A stretch of DNA of 46,496 nucleotides. Source: Hyphococcus sp. (GTDB lineage Bacteria > Pseudomonadota > Alphaproteobacteria > Caulobacterales > Parvularculaceae). Made by a program: the position numbers and the translations under genes. The notes under the pieces are model-generated. The model saw only the letters and a list, made by a program, of their open reading frames with translations. It was not told the origin of the DNA and did not search any database. The stretch is taken from the NCBI GenBank assembly GCA_021776295.1, contig JAJFGE010000108.1, positions 1 through 46,496 on the forward strand. The letters run 5' to 3'. This document shows positions 7,538 through 35,278 of the stretch, piece after piece; the stretch's first letter is position 1, and every line of letters begins with the position of its first letter.

Positions 7538-7843
7538 ATGATCATCGTTTCAGGAAAAGCCAAATTTAAGCCCGGCGCGATTATTGGGTTGCACGACATA
7601 ATGCAAGCGACCATCACCGAGACACGCAAAGAAGACGGCTGTATCGATTACTCCTATGGCGTCGATGTGCTCGACCCCGACGCCATTGTGGTGGTTGAAT
7701 ATTGGGAGAGTTGGGCAGCGCTCGAAAAACATTTCACCCAACCACATATGGCCGAGTGGGTCACCGCGCTCACAAAAGCCGGCGTTGTCTTGCGGGACAT
7801 AAAGTTCGTCGAGGCTGGCGAAGAAAGGGAATTCTTTCGCTAA
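7538..7843 (+). CDS. antibiotic biosynthesis monooxygenase (ABM) domain protein
   Basis: A 101-residue ferredoxin-like fold protein of the ABM/YgiN type. The pattern is a short beta strand (MIIVSGKAKFKPG), a helix, CIDYSYGVDVLDPD, VVVEYWESWAALEKHF and a C-terminal PHMAEW helix, which is the usual order of the family. Members act as cofactor-poor quinone monooxygenases or as enzymes of unknown function; the substrate here is not evident. The start at 7538 is fixed by AGGAG at 7526-7530. Its stop overlaps the end of the convergent Mur ligase gene by 4 bases. Confidence 0.88.
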   Translation: MIIVSGKAKFKPGAIIGLHDIMQATITETRKEDGCIDYSYGVDVLDPDAIVVVEYWESWAALEKHFTQPHMAEWVTALTKAGVVLRDIKFVEAGEEREFFR

Positions 7844-9240
7844 GGGCGAAGCTTTTCAACCAGCCCAGCGGCAAATATCGACAGCGTATCATCGCGCGCA
7901 CCCATGATGATAATCCGGTCTCCGGACCGTGCGCATTCAAGCAGTCTTGCGCCGCAAGCGCCCCGGTCCGGCAACGCTTCTGCATTGCCACCCGCAACCG
8001 CGACGCCTTGCGCGATATCAGCACTAGATACCGAGCGATCGACGCTGCCGCCATAATAGACCGGCTGCGGCATTATCAAAATATCGTCCGGGCTCAGATT
8101 ATCGGCAAAACAGGCGATGAATTCATCTTTCATCTTGTTAAGCGGGCCGAACCCATGCGGTTGAAACATCACCAGCAAGCGCCCGGGAAATTCGTGCAAG
8201 GCTTTAAGGCTCGCGGTGATCTTGTCGGGATTATGGGCAAAATCGTCGACGACAGTCACGCCGCCGCCCTCACCGACAAATTCAAGCCGACGCTTGACGC
8301 CCTCAAATTTGCCGAGCGCCTGCGCCGCATCCGAGACTGCAACGCCACAGGCGGTAGCGGCGGCGATGGCCGCCAGAGCATTGGAAACATTGTGGCGGCC
8401 AGGCATTTTCAGCGCCACGGGCGCCGATAGATTTTCATCGCGTCCCACGACATCAAACGAAACGCCGAATGGCTCCGGGCAGATGTTGTGCGCGCCCAAA
8501 TCACCTTTGCCAGCCTCAAGACTATAGGTGACGCATTTTGTTTCACCAAGCGCGGCAATGCGCGCTGTTTCTTCATTGTCCAAATTCAATATAGCGGTCT
8601 GCGCCCGGTCTACGAAGCCGCCAAACAGCGCGCGTAACTCAGCCATGGTTTTATGGTCAAGAGCGATATTGTTCAGCACCGCAATCTTCGGATTAAACGC
8701 TGCAATCGAGCCGTCGCTTTCGTCAACCTCGCTGACAAACGCCGCGCCGGCGCCAACTAGCGCGCTGGCGAACAGCGCATCGTCGCGGACAAAGTTTTTC
8801 ATCACCGCACCGTTCATCACCGTCGGGTCTTTGCCAGCATGGTAAAGAATCCAGCCAATCATCGCCGTCGTCGTTGATTTGCCGCTGGTGCCAGCGACGC
8901 CAATGGGACAGGCAGACTGGTTGAACAGCTGCGCCAACAGGTTCGCGCGGGTGAGCCGCACAGCGCCAATTGCATTTCCCGCCACAATATCGGGCACGGT
9001 GTCTTCAACCGCCGCAGAAGCCACCAGAATTTGGCCCGGCCGGGTCAGGCCGGTTCCGTCCTGGGCGTGGAGCGCGACGCCAAGCGACCGCAAATAATCG
9101 AACTTCGCAGCCGTCCGGCCCTGATCCAGCGCCCGGTCAGAGCCCTCCACATGGTCGCCGCGCGCACTCACAATCATCGCCAAGGGCAACATGCCCGAGC
9201 CGCCAATGCCGCAGAAGAAATAGTCTTTTGTGTCCGCCAT
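7840..9240 (-). CDS. mpl: Mur ligase family protein, probably UDP-MurNAc:tripeptide ligase (Mpl-type)
   Basis: A 466-residue Mur ligase. The N-terminal UDP-binding Rossmann region starts CGIGGSGMLPLA, the ATP-binding loop GTSGKST lies at 117-123, then the central-domain motif SEVDESDG, and the C-terminal ligase domain has GVKRRLEFVGE and DDFAHNPDKI. The MurC and Mpl enzymes share this architecture. I favour Mpl, which reattaches recycled tripeptide to UDP-MurNAc, because the divergent neighbour encodes an LD-carboxypeptidase that generates exactly such tripeptides. The cell-division murC gene would normally sit in the dcw cluster, which is absent here. The choice between MurC and Mpl rests on context. 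Confidence 0.85.
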   Translation of the reverse strand: MADTKDYFFCGIGGSGMLPLAMIVSARGDHVEGSDRALDQGRTAAKFDYLRSLGVALHAQDGTGLTRPGQILVASAAVEDTVPDIVAGNAIGAVRLTRANLLAQLFNQSACPIGVAGTSGKSTTTAMIGWILYHAGKDPTVMNGAVMKNFVRDDALFASALVGAGAAFVSEVDESDGSIAAFNPKIAVLNNIALDHKTMAELRALFGGFVDRAQTAILNLDNEETARIAALGETKCVTYSLEAGKGDLGAHNICPEPFGVSFDVVGRDENLSAPVALKMPGRHNVSNALAAIAAATACGVAVSDAAQALGKFEGVKRRLEFVGEGGGVTVVDDFAHNPDKITASLKALHEFPGRLLVMFQPHGFGPLNKMKDEFIACFADNLSPDDILIMPQPVYYGGSVDRSVSSADIAQGVAVAGGNAEALPDRGACGARLLECARSGDRIIIMGARDDTLSIFAAGLVEKLRP

Positions 9241-9315: not shown

Positions 9316-9420
9316 TAGAGCGTGTTCACGAAAAGTGTAGGCGGTTTTTGGGTTCGAACACGCGACAACCAAAGGATCTGGACTGGGTTCCCGATTCGAT
9401 AAAAAGTGAATGCAGTCTAG
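9316..9420. repeat. twin-hairpin TAGAGC repeat, copy A (uninterrupted)
   Basis: A 105-base intergenic element that begins TAGAGCGTGTTCAC and ends GCAGTCTAG. It shares long blocks with 33937-34162, among them AAAAGTGTAGGCGGTTTTTG and GGGTTCCCGATTCGA. It holds a hairpin whose loop contains the reverse complement of the conserved CCGNNNCACAC, and a second one (GACTG...CAGTC) whose loop holds GATTC. It lies in the 195-base divergent gap between mpl and ldcA and ends 15 bases before the ldcA start codon, so ldcA transcription must start in or beyond it. Confidence 0.85.
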
Positions 9421-9435
9421 GCTAAAAGCTGAATT

Positions 9436-10281
9436 ATGAGCCAAGAAACAAAACATATCGCCCTTGTCTGCCCCGGCGGGCCGATTGACCGCGGGCTTGC
9501 CAATCAAACCAGCGCGATTGCGGCCGCGAGGTTTGGCGAGCGCGCGGCGCTCCATTTCCATCCGCACTGTTTTTTCGAGGCTGGCCATTTTGCCGGCGAC
9601 GACGCGACGCGCAGCGCCGCCTTTTTGGAGGTTGCGAACGATCCGAAATTTGACGCCGTGTGGTTTGCGCGCGGCGGTTATGGCGCCTGTCGGCTGGATG
9701 ATGGTCTATTCACAAAGCTCAACGCCGCGGCGCGCACGAAAACCTATCTTGGCTATTCTGACGCCGGGATGATATTGGCGCGGCTCTATCAGGCCGGGAT
9801 CGGCAGGCCCGTACACGGGCCAATGCCGACCGACCTTACCCGGCCGGATGGCGCCCAGGCGATTGCGCGCGCACTCGACTTTCTCGTCACCGGCGCTGCT
9901 GACACGCTGGAGCCGACGGCAACATTCGGCGAGAAAACCGTCGCGTTCAACATTACTGTCCTTAGCCATCTCATCGCCGCAGACTGGGCGCCGGACCTTT
10001 CCGGCCATGTCGTCCTTCTGGAAGACGTGTCGGAATATTTATACAGCATCGACCGGGCGATGTTTGCGATCCTGTCGAGCCCTAAATTACGCCACGCGGC
10101 GGGCATAAAACTCGGCCGCATCACCGACGTGCCGGAAAACGACCGTCCGTTCGGCCACAGCGCGGAAGAAATCGTCGCCTATTGGTGCGCCCGAGCCGGC
10201 GTTGCCTATCTCGGCCGCGCCGATATCGGTCACGACGCGGACAACAAGGTGGTTCCATTCGGAGCAAGCCAACCGTCTTAG
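9436..10281 (+). CDS. ldcA: LD-carboxypeptidase, peptidase family S66
   Basis: A 281-residue serine peptidase of the S66 family (LdcA/MccF type), which removes the terminal D-Ala from muropeptide tetrapeptides in the cytosol. Visible markers are the N-terminal CPGGPID, WFARGGYGACRL near 76-87, the nucleophile in GYSD (Ser108), HGPMPTDL, LLEDVSEYLYSIDRA with a catalytic Glu candidate, and GHDADNK with the catalytic His candidate. Length is slightly below the usual 300. No good ribosome site precedes the ATG at 9436. The divergent mpl-type gene suggests both serve peptidoglycan recycling. An MccF-like immunity role is an alternative but less likely in this context. Confidence 0.9.
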   Translation: MSQETKHIALVCPGGPIDRGLANQTSAIAAARFGERAALHFHPHCFFEAGHFAGDDATRSAAFLEVANDPKFDAVWFARGGYGACRLDDGLFTKLNAAARTKTYLGYSDAGMILARLYQAGIGRPVHGPMPTDLTRPDGAQAIARALDFLVTGAADTLEPTATFGEKTVAFNITVLSHLIAADWAPDLSGHVVLLEDVSEYLYSIDRAMFAILSSPKLRHAAGIKLGRITDVPENDRPFGHSAEEIVAYWCARAGVAYLGRADIGHDADNKVVPFGASQPS

Positions 10282-32778: not shown

Positions 32779-33939
32779 ATGAGTATCCCGTTCATCGACC
32801 TGCAGGCGCAGCGACGCCGGATTGCCGGCAAAATCGACCGCGCCATTCAAACCGTCCTTGACCATGGCGCTTTTGTTATGGGACCTGAAGTCGGCGAACT
32901 CGAACGTCGGCTCGCTGCATTTTCAGACGCAAAACATGCCGTCGCCTGCGCCAGTGGAACTGACGCCATTGCCCTGGCGCTGATGGCCTGGGAGGTGAAA
33001 CCCAATGACGCGGTTTTCTGTCCCAGCTTTACGTTCTGCGCAACCGGCGAGGTCATCCCGTGGTTTGGCGCATCGCCCGTCTTTGTCGATATCGAAGCCG
33101 ATACATACAATATCGACCCGGAAGACCTCGAACGGGCGATTGAGCAAACCCTTCGCGAGGGAAAACTGACGCCGAAAGTGATTATCGGCGTTTGTCTTTT
33201 TGGCCAGACCGCCAATTACCCAAGGCTTCGCGAGATTGCCGACAAATACGGCCTCAAATTACTGGCCGACAGCGCGCAAGGATTTGGCGCAACGATAAAA
33301 GGGCGCCATCCAAGCGATTTTGCCGACGCAGTGACCACCAGTTTCTTTCCAGCAAAACCACTCGGCTGTTATGGCGACGGCGGCGGCGTTCTCACCAATG
33401 ACAGCGCGCTTGCGGATATTCTCGATAGTCTGCATGTCCACGGCAAGGCAATCCCCGCCGACATGGAAGGGCGCACATTCGACCATGATGCGAAATACCT
33501 CAATATGCGCATCGGCATGAATTCGCGCCTCGATACAATTCAGGCGACAGTTCTGCTTGAAAAGCTGACAATTTTCGCTGACGAAATCGATACGCGCAAC
33601 AAAATTGCCGCGCGATACAGCGCGCTCCTGGCGCCGCATGTTTCCTCGACGCCATTTGTCAAAGATGGGTATGTCTCAATCTGGGCGCAATACACAATCG
33701 AGCATAACAACCGCGACGGCTTGCGCGACCATCTTGCCTCATCAGGTATTCCAACTGCGGTTTATTATCCGGCGCCGATGCATGTTAGTCCCGCCTATAA
33801 GGAATTTGCGCCGGCGCCGGGCGTGCTCAAAATCACTGAAGAAAAAGCCGGCGGCGTCATGTCACTGCCCATGCACCCCTATCTTGATGAAGAAACGCAA
33901 GACCGGATTGTCGACACTATCCGTGGGTATAATGGGTAG
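32779..33939 (+). CDS. DegT/DnrJ/EryC1-family sugar aminotransferase
   Basis: A 386-residue PLP-dependent aminotransferase that converts a nucleotide-linked keto sugar to an amino sugar. It starts PFIDLQAQ as usual; ACASGTDAIALALMA binds the PLP phosphate, LADSAQGFGA has the Asp that contacts the ring nitrogen, and the Schiff-base Lys is in SFFPAKPLGCYGDGG. The particular substrate cannot be told from sequence; no 4,6-dehydratase for UDP-sugars is adjacent. Its TAG stop codon is the first three bases of the repeat that follows. Confidence 0.94.
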   Translation: MSIPFIDLQAQRRRIAGKIDRAIQTVLDHGAFVMGPEVGELERRLAAFSDAKHAVACASGTDAIALALMAWEVKPNDAVFCPSFTFCATGEVIPWFGASPVFVDIEADTYNIDPEDLERAIEQTLREGKLTPKVIIGVCLFGQTANYPRLREIADKYGLKLLADSAQGFGATIKGRHPSDFADAVTTSFFPAKPLGCYGDGGGVLTNDSALADILDSLHVHGKAIPADMEGRTFDHDAKYLNMRIGMNSRLDTIQATVLLEKLTIFADEIDTRNKIAARYSALLAPHVSSTPFVKDGYVSIWAQYTIEHNNRDGLRDHLASSGIPTAVYYPAPMHVSPAYKEFAPAPGVLKITEEKAGGVMSLPMHPYLDEETQDRIVDTIRGYNG

Positions 33940-34162
33940 AGCGTGTTCACAAAAAGTGTAGGCGGTTTTTGGGTTCGAGTGAGGCGAGAGAGCGCCGAAC
34001 GCGACCACTAGAGCAAAATGCGATAAATCTGAATCGTGCATTTTGCTCTAGATTCTTTCGTGGTCGCATTGCGCGACGCGAAAACCGTTGCACACTTTTC
34101 GCTCGATGCTCTAAAGAATCCAGACTGCGTTCCCGATTCGACAAAAAGTGAACGCAGCCTAG
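33937..34162. repeat. twin-hairpin TAGAGC repeat, copy B, interrupted by a second copy
   Basis: Same ends and shared blocks as 9316-9420 (TAGAGCGTGTTCAC at the left, GTTCCCGATTCGA and GCAGCCTAG at the right), but 226 bases long because a different copy (34008-34113) sits inside. The right hairpin is CTGCGTTC (34125-34132) with GAACGCAG (34150-34157), and its loop holds GATTC. It has the opposite orientation to the inner copy. It fills most of the 343-base gap between the aminotransferase and GT2 genes, which has no coding sequence I can support. Confidence 0.82.
34008..34113. repeat. twin-hairpin repeat nested inside copy B
   Basis: Hairpin 1 has a 14-bp stem, CTAGAGCAAAATGC (34008-34021) and its complement (34038-34051), with GAATC in the loop. 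Hairpin 2 is GCGAAAA (34078-34084) with TTTTCGC (34096-34102) and loop CCGTTGCACAC. It ends in GCTCTA. Sequences on both sides continue the outer copy, so this looks like an insertion. Confidence 0.8.
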
Positions 34163-34261
34163 AGCAAATCCGAGTTAAATTGAATCATGGATTTGCTCTA
34201 GATTGTTTGTTTGCCGCATTTCTATCGGATAACCGCGTCACACTTATCCGGAAATGCTCTA
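34160..34261. repeat. twin-hairpin TAGAGC repeat, third copy
   Basis: Same plan as 34008-34113 with different stems. Hairpin 1 pairs 34159-34171 with 34189-34201 (13 bp, loop with GAATC). Hairpin 2 pairs GCATTTC (34216-34222) with GAAATGC (34251-34257) and CGGATAA (34226-34232) with TTATCCG (34244-34250), loop CCGCGTCACAC. It shares its left CTAG with the right end of copy B. Confidence 0.82.
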
Positions 34262-34282
34262 GAAGATAACGGCGCGCACGAT

Positions 34283-35278
34283 TCATTCGCCGAAAATATC
34301 GGCCTGTTTTCGAAATAGTTTTACCGGTGACCAGGTCAAAGCTCTTGCAAGTTTGCCAAGCGAAATTTTTCGGGTCCGCTGAATCTCACGGCGGGCTGCG
34401 GTTTGCGCTGGCAGACCGGCAAAGCCGTCGCGCATGGCGCGCAGATAAGGCTTGGCTTCGCCGAGAAATGCAAATCGCGCCAACAGATAAATATTTGCAA
34501 GCACCTGAAATGGCGCAGTGGCGATAAGCAGCGCCAAAGGCATGTTTCGATAGTAAGCCCAAACCCGGTTGCGGTGGCCGTGATAGACGGTGAAATCGCT
34601 GCGCCGGCCGGTAACGCCGGAACCCTCATGCAGCACAAGCGCATCCGGGATTTGCATCGCTCGCCCGCCAGCCAGACGCAGGCGAAAACCCAAGTCGATA
34701 TCTTCGCAGTAACAAAAAAAGCTTTCTTCAAATCCGCCAAGCGCTGCGAATGTCGTGCGGCGATACATCGCCGCCGCTGCGCACGGCGCGAAGCACTCGC
34801 CTTCCGGCGGCAAGGACGCAACCGGCCAGCCATGGTGGCCGCGATAGGGAACGCCGGAAAAATGATAGGCGTCGCCGGCGCCGTCGAGCTGGTCCGGGTT
34901 TGCAGCGTCAATCTGCGCCGAGCCAAACGCATCAATGCCGGGATGGCGCCCCGCCGCCGCCAGCAACGCCTCCAGCCAGCCCGGTTCCGGATAGGCGTCC
35001 GGGTTAAGAAACGCCAGCCATTCGCCCTTTGCTGTCTTAGCAGCGCGATTATTGGCGGCGGCGAAACCAAGGTTTGTTCCCGCTTCATCAATCAATACCG
35101 GCAGCACAGCGGCGCGCGCATATTCCAGCGAATTATCCGTAGACCCATTATCGACAAGGATAGTTTCAAAATCCTGGAAGCTCTGCGTGGCAAGGCAATC
35201 AAGGCAGCGCCGCAAGCGGTCGCCAGCATTGTAATTGACGATGATAATCGTAACGCGTGGAGCCAAGGCTTGTGTCAT
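34283..35278 (-). CDS. glycosyltransferase family 2 (WbbL rhamnosyltransferase-like)
   Basis: A 331-residue GT-A glycosyltransferase. Motifs are VTIIIVNYNAGDRLRRC, the donor-binding VDNGSTDNS, NLGFAAANN, FLNPDAYPEPGW (the DxD-like site), and SFFCYCEDIDLGFRLRLAG for the acceptor. The pattern of NLGFAAANN with an EDIDL(G/C) motif is typical of WbbL-like rhamnosyl transferases, which fits rmlA and rmlC in the window, but the donor is inferred. A hydrophobic C-terminal segment may attach it to the membrane. It starts 16 bases after the glmS stop on the same strand. Confidence 0.9.
   Translation of the reverse strand: MTQALAPRVTIIIVNYNAGDRLRRCLDCLATQSFQDFETILVDNGSTDNSLEYARAAVLPVLIDEAGTNLGFAAANNRAAKTAKGEWLAFLNPDAYPEPGWLEALLAAAGRHPGIDAFGSAQIDAANPDQLDGAGDAYHFSGVPYRGHHGWPVASLPPEGECFAPCAAAAMYRRTTFAALGGFEESFFCYCEDIDLGFRLRLAGGRAMQIPDALVLHEGSGVTGRRSDFTVYHGHRNRVWAYYRNMPLALLIATAPFQVLANIYLLARFAFLGEAKPYLRAMRDGFAGLPAQTAARREIQRTRKISLGKLARALTWSPVKLFRKQADIFGE

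Follow-up and report, generated by a model that had tools for sequence, protein, structure and literature searches.

The closest described counterparts of the repeats analysed here are the CcrM-associated intergenic repeats, or CIR (Chen and Shapiro 2003, as summarised in the review PMC2229807). According to the review's account, CIR are about 110 bp long and consist of two hairpin arms and a linker; one of the hairpins bears GANTC in its terminal loop, and TA stands at the termini. They are present in many copies in Alphaproteobacteria, between genes and not inside them, and are linked to CcrM through the GANTC; the review leaves their function undetermined and the mechanism of their mobility open. 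The same review describes RUP of Streptococcus pneumoniae, a non-autonomous element of about 107 bp that inserts at TA and has ends like those of IS630-Spn1 (PMC2229807), and Correia elements have also been termed IS630-derived MITEs (PMC2817692). A literature search, with most subscription journals outside its range, found no paper tying CIR or GANTC to IS630; PMC9296519 contains the terms IS630, GANTC and CcrM, but IS630 stands there only within a count table.

Four copies of a two-hairpin repeat

The whole stretch of DNA that was analysed (46,496 nucleotides, henceforth the window) is one contig, C11, of an assembly of 3.08 Mb in 186 contigs, 85.5% complete and 6.1% contaminated. Four copies of a repeat had been noticed in it from the letters alone, and all four are present, at coordinates that were right to within a base or two. 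The family plan consists of two hairpins with a linker between them and TA at both ends. That one plan fits the four copies stands, with the 9316 and 33937 copies following it on the minus strand; the TAGAGC ascribed to all four, however, is replaced in subfamily C by TAGACT...AGTCTAG at its hairpin 1 end. Read on the plus strand, C copies have the GAATC hairpin second. The features are as follows (basis in brackets).

9316..9419, minus strand: CIR-like element of subfamily C, uninterrupted, hairpin 1 decayed (covariance model, 94.5 bits)
9393..9397, minus strand: GANTC, nt 23-27 of the 9316 C copy (sequence)
33937..33938, no strand: left TA of the composite insertion (single TA at the matching place in the relative G026)
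33937..34161, minus strand: C-type element interrupted by B, whole span (sequence, covariance model)
33937..34008, minus strand: right-end (hairpin 2) part of the C-type element, severed by B (sequence, covariance model)
34009..34113, plus strand: CIR-like element of subfamily B, TA at both borders, within the C copy at CTA (covariance model, 97.1 bits)
34031..34035, plus strand: GAATC, nt 23-27 of B (sequence)
34112..34161, minus strand: left-end (hairpin 1) part of the C-type element (sequence, covariance model)
34135-34139, minus strand: GANTC, nt 23-27 of the interrupted C copy (sequence)
34160..34261, plus strand: CIR-like element of subfamily A, 102 nt, TA to TA (covariance model, 105.9 bits; ends of the IS630 relic)
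34160..34200, plus strand: hairpin 1 of A, left end (inverted repeat, fold, covariation)
34182..34186, plus strand: GAATC (GANTC, a CcrM-type site), nt 23-27 of A, in the hairpin 1 loop (sequence)
34216..34257, plus strand: hairpin 2 of A, right end (covariation, fold)
34260..34261, no strand: right TA of the composite insertion (comparison with G026)

Every window copy thus carries GANTC at nt 23-27. Hairpin 2 of A has nested arms, GCATTTC/GAAATGC and CGGATAA/TTATCCG, around the loop CCGCGTCACAC. The TA at 34160-34161 is common to A and the left-end part of the interrupted C, i.e. A occupies the terminal TA of that copy, and the TAG of the same C element doubles as the stop codon for an aminotransferase-like gene at 32779-33939. 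The 9316 copy is flanked by a Mur-ligase-like gene, divergent in sequence or orientation as called (7840-9240, minus strand), and by an LD-carboxypeptidase-like gene with its ATG at 9436.

A multicopy family in the assembly

Copies beyond these four had been expected, and when the window and 72 fetched stretches were scanned with a covariance model, 90 matches resulted, of which 79 reached 47 bits. The assembly holds at least 79 family copies, a count that strain duplicates within it could inflate. By blast we found pieces of A at least 48 times, of B (34008-34113) at least 43 times and of C (9316-9424) at least 25 times, the pieces overlapping between queries; they include 22 more full or near-full copies of subfamily A with 94-98% identity to the window copy. 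The reverse complement of C aligns with A and B along its full length, linker (CTAGATTCTTT..TGGTCGC) included, so that the three subfamilies belong to one family. Its members measure 102-106 nt, with variants of 120-122 nt, and contain two hairpin arms and a linker without a transposase gene. When two short matches (L072, L075) are set aside, 77 copies remain, 65 with TA at both ends and 62 with GAATC at nt 23. From the published description of CIR, rather than from its letters, the family would be classed as CIR-type.

About a dozen A copies are 119-120-nt variants (L019:635-753, L030-L039, L041:672-791) in which an extra hairpin, e.g. GTTGAAAG..CTTTCAAC, replaces the inner stem of hairpin 2, indicating that modules are exchanged. 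Elements of a further kind in the same genus (L174, L175, L177, L185 and L186, from G016, G021 and G027) have two right-end-type hairpins, GCGCATTTCC.. and GGCGTTTCCG.., without the GANTC hairpin, and are possibly a one-ended derivative family.

Insertion at TA

The interruption of one copy by another had been taken as a sign of mobility. The nesting is real, and mobility is supported by the nested insertions, by the 94-98% identical A copies and by two genomes of the same genus (G026 and G006) that lack the whole composite at the same site. Where the window reads GGG-TA-GAGCG...GCTC-TA-GAAGATAA, G026 reads GGA-TA-AAAGATAG, with one TA instead of two. Downstream of it G026 has A where the window has G, so the duplication that we claim is of TA only. 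The more diverged G006 has GGT-TG-AAATATG, with TG in place of TA, so the single-TA empty site comes from one relative, G026. The sequence would fit an order in which C entered a TA, B then entered a CTA inside C, and A entered the terminal TA of C. The insertion point of B reads CACTAAAG in some uninterrupted copies of C, among them L049, L051 and L052, and varies in others. C-A neighbours with a common TA, as in the window, recur in L028 and L032.

The target is mainly C-TA-R: among the 65 TA-ended copies, C precedes the left TA in 61, compared with 15% of window TAs, and G or A follows the right TA in 61. IS630 elements behave likewise, with C before TA in 40/47 and R after it in 46/49.

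An IS630 element with the same ends

The single IS630 (DDE_3) element found in the assembly (contig C59, L088:148-1189) has TAGAGC ends between TAs. It is a relic whose DDE region is interrupted by an in-frame TAA, and it is 90% identical to an element in a Parvularculaceae MAG; the host may thus belong to that family, although a mobile element says little about kinship. Its ends are TAGAGCGTTTCCGAGCTTGATTGAATCA on the orfA side and TAGAGCATTTCCGATTTAG on the orfB side. Over 28 positions the left end of A shares 22 with the orfA end, the best score among the 2725 window 28-mers that begin with TA; the next, at 17/28, is A's own right end. The right end of A matches the orfB end at 13/13 of its first positions and differs beyond nt 13. 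Since the left end of A also fits the orfB end at 21/28, which IS630 end gave which A end is uncertain. B agrees with the IS630 end at 12/28, and both B and C match little beyond TAGAGC and GAATC. The repeats and the IS630 have their ends in common but no interior sequence.

We consider it probable that the repeats are CIR-type non-autonomous miniature transposons, cross-mobilised by a transposase of the IS630 family (Tc1/mariner-type DDE). TAGAGC-type ends with TA flanks were found in many alphaproteobacterial IS630 elements by an end-finder whose only criteria were TA and inverted similarity. Of 398 genomes sampled across the phylum, 34 had a match to the transposase, 30 of them in the same class and the other four at only 30-34% identity. 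Bradyrhizobium barranii subsp. apii 1S5 has dozens of loci with a related IS630 (L117, L126-L150, L152-L164, L166, L168), 58% identical in the query region, an expansion that is apparently recent.

A CcrM site at nucleotide 23

What these data add is a fixed place, nt 23, for GANTC (the CcrM methylation site) in the orfA-side end of IS630. The first set comprised 111 loci, of which 9 lacked an end pair and 102 had one; 27 of the latter were not TAG-type (truncated elements, other IS630 types, chance pairs and some further B. barranii copies), and the 75 TAG-type loci reduced to 40 non-redundant elements. Among these 40, 38 have a GANTC beginning at orfA-end nt 23 (GAATC in 28, GAGTC in 9, GATTC in one), and positions 13 to 21 have an information content of 0.03-0.30 bits. 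The two exceptions (L152, L231) look like chance or other-type ends and were excluded after inspection. Of 29 loci scored afterwards, 5 had no ends, 3 were duplicates and 10 were not TAGAG, and the prediction held in all 11 that remained; two uncounted TAAAG-type elements (L274, L279) have GANTC at nt 23 as well.

Over the resulting 49 elements G, A, T and C of the site are invariant and N is A in 39, G in 9, T in one and never C. None of them has GANTC at the corresponding place, nt 23, of the orfB end. The interiors contain 1.78 GANTC per kb, and 26/49 elements have a second GANTC at nt 28-45. The first orfA start codon, present in 47/49, lies at a median of nt 74, which puts the site ahead of the transposase coding sequence, in its leader or promoter. 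Retention of GANTC at this position in repeats that lack a gene suggests that the site acts through the end itself.

The assembly encodes CcrM, matched by Caulobacter CcrM 6pbd at E = 1.8e-162, although the protein scores 608 bits with the NCBIfam CcrM model, below the cut-off of 830. Its RAMA domain was found in 24/28 genomes of the genus, with no match in the copy-rich relatives G019 and G026 (assemblies 83% and 91% complete). Two very similar CcrM genes, L291 and L292, lie on contigs C156 and C136 of G000; they may not be paralogues but strain duplicates within the assembly.

An alternative, to which we would give nearly even chances, is that the transposase simply recognises the nt-23 GANTC as sequence, tolerating changes of its middle base, and that the site is unrelated to CcrM. 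GAAAC often stands in place of GAATC in distant repeat families, and the absence of C at N among the 49 elements fits a recognition sequence too. Against this, N takes three values around four invariant bases, the pattern of a GANTC site, and a quick tree built from the 49 transposase fragments requires a minimum of 8 changes of N (9.4 with shuffled labels), 3 of them forced by well-supported branches. Moreover, GANTC is depleted nearly fourfold in the window (49 against 183.6 expected), such depletion being usual in CcrM hosts. Five of the 49 window sites fall inside the 325-nt composite insertion.

Paired arms and folding

It had been observed that the stems of the copies differ and yet still pair. 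We scored 26 pairs (12 in hairpin 1, and 7 outer and 7 inner in hairpin 2) in an alignment of 22 sequences, from which the extra-hairpin variants and the TATAGC subgroup of B were excluded. The observation held against both shuffled and slid controls: standard pairs fill 90.0% of pair cells (shuffled 71.4 +/- 1.2; slid 30-52%), the covariation score is 0.469 against 0.166 +/- 0.015 in shuffles, and 103 cells are changed on both sides against 39.4 +/- 5.4. The excess of pairs with both-side changes is modest (17/26; shuffled 14.4 +/- 1.4, matched by 22/500; slid 2-7), and the number of pair types is not above shuffles (27 vs 28.1). With all 90 matches, in an alignment that was itself fitted to the structure, 92.6% of cells are paired, 22/26 pairs are changed on both sides, and five of five measures beat all 500 shuffles. 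Chance is excluded as the source of the pairing in the family. Hairpin 1 has TATAGC..GCTATAG in a B subgroup and TAGACT..AGTCTAG in C while the far end is still GCTCTA, so internal pairing is preserved and end-to-end symmetry is lost.

The z scores of RNA folding are -4.10 for A, -2.48 for B, -2.59 for L051, -4.67 for L178 and -4.62 for a copy in Shinella. The 9316 copy, at -0.50, is decayed. The orfA-side IS630 end scores -0.46 over its first 60 nt, so the hairpins belong to the short elements and not to that IS630. The folded form may matter, as the strong covariation indicates, yet this IS630 end does without such a hairpin and mutation templated by the palindrome could match the arms too.

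Such a mutational origin, in which template switching in quasi-palindromes copies one arm onto the other, is a plausible source of the matched changes, though one we lean against. The copy at L183 in G006 is now a near-perfect palindrome across the loop, and in one copy (L029:643-744; G000:C128) hairpin 1 is flipped while the remainder of the element keeps its orientation, a mark left by palindrome-mediated inversion. However, the loops (GAATC; CCGNNNCACAC) remain unsymmetrised in most copies, and template switching would need selection on the loops to keep them so.

Another way to account for the covariation is that mobility explains only the origin of the elements, which were then retained as RNA-level devices (terminators or hairpins for the processing of mRNA tails) and had their paired arms selected for that purpose. 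This we regard as rather unlikely. By crude, greedy ORF calls, 20 of the 77 copies lie between convergent ORFs, 29 between tandem and 8 between divergent ones, with 12 overlapping an ORF and 8 without a flanking ORF, against 8 convergent, 22 tandem and 8 divergent among 38 window gaps; the gene context speaks in favour, the quality of the calls against. At gathering scores Rfam gave tRNA only in the window, and a permissive search of 33900-34300 gave two weak matches. The Brucella sRNA CI408 matched over hairpin 2 with 22 bits, but its gathering score is 398. Also against a role in RNA, hairpin 1 of A copies contains mismatches without compensation, and the 9316 copy, just upstream of a start codon, barely folds.

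Other candidate mobilisers

Two other transposases could be proposed in place of the IS630 type. It is very improbable that the repeats are MITEs of an IS5-family (IS427 group) transposase with YTAR targets and TA duplication. The precedent is IS711 of Brucella, which appears to duplicate TA at YTAR and has a reported preference for Bru-RS repeats (PMC2266754), and the target here is mostly CTAR; nevertheless, none of the 5 DDE_Tnp_1 (PF01609) matches in the assembly is bracketed by exact TAGAGC and GCTCTA, as the only IS630 found is. The RAYT (Y1 tyrosine transposase) suggested in the original prediction, which would move REP/BIME-type repeats as single-stranded DNA with the hairpins as its substrate, agrees with hairpins conserved by pairing, as a single-strand enzyme would need, and with one Y1_Tnp gene in the assembly, but is scarcely credible here, as a single exact TAGAGC and not one GCTCTA occur in the 3.3 kb around that sole gene (L081), and the repeats have IS630-type ends and TA at both borders, neither TA duplication nor terminal TA being known for RAYT elements.

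Distribution beyond the assembly

In a class-wide sample, repeats at E <= 0.001 were found in at least 25/289 genomes, the source genome included. Taking the repeat and IS630 surveys as the same 289 genomes (the listed genomes agree), we saw no significant co-occurrence: IS630 is present in 8/25 genomes with repeats and 58/264 without (Fisher p = 0.32). Of 28 repeat loci of other families, 8 have GANTC at nt 23, 10 retain GA, often as GAAAC, and 10 have neither, although the low-scoring ones among them could be false members. Near IS630 loci of named genomes the model, run on 43 of 80 loci, gave one weak match (L127, 26.9 bits). A link to known alphaproteobacterial repeat families had also been foreseen, and it was found both with CIR, by description, and with the Rhizobiaceae: Shinella sp. 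PSBB067 (NZ_CP069303.1) has a full relative of 70.9 bits with GAATC at nt 23, and S. meliloti pSYMB a weak one of 25.8 bits. The hairpin 2 half of A matched 1 of 72,556 plasmid records (Shinella), and phages gave no match to the repeat.

A proposed mechanism and its relation to known systems

The IS630 transposase would bind the TAGAGC end together with the inner, GANTC-containing site, cut at TA and reinsert a unit of about 100 nt. Because the only IS630 found in the assembly is a relic, current moves would need a copy elsewhere. CcrM methylates GANTC, which is hemimethylated once the fork has passed; through this mark, end recognition or transposase expression could be coupled to replication, as is reported for Dam-regulated elements of other families, and transposition would be timed by methylation. 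Tentatively, and with rather less than even confidence, we propose that an alphaproteobacterial IS630 clade and CIR use the CcrM state of the nt-23 GANTC as a replication-timed transposition switch. If so, the GANTC of CIR was inherited from a transposon end and not kept for host cell-cycle control.

The repeats share with CIR, as the review describes them, a length of about 110 bp, two hairpins and a linker, the loop GANTC and TA termini; where the review leaves mobility open (PMC2229807), we see TA at both borders and propose IS630 as the partner and as the origin of the GANTC. The data thus give CIR a likely mobiliser and its GANTC a likely source in the IS630 end. RUP and IS630-Spn1 offer the same combination of a short non-autonomous element, TA insertion and IS630-type ends, but in another phylum; the review's text on RUP reports no functional DNA motif and describes it among elements with one end-to-end stem, whereas the repeats here have two hairpins (PMC2229807). 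RIME of Rhizobium and Bru-RS of Brucella, the latter about 105 bp long (PMC2267715), are likewise alphaproteobacterial intergenic palindromic repeats. We compared them by their descriptions, and the ties to these groups are the full relative in Shinella, the weak one on pSYMB and the weak Rfam link to a Brucella sRNA.

The Dam-regulated insertion sequences IS10 and IS50 resemble the proposed system in that a replication-linked methylation site of the host is tied to transposition. In other IS families, too, methylation is described as restricting transposases to the interval that directly follows replication (PMC9296519). The differences are that here the site would be GANTC and the enzyme CcrM, not GATC and Dam, that the family is IS630, and that the link is predicted. 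If it is real, the IS630 clade and its repeats would represent an independent case of a transposon using its host's replication-linked methylation mark.
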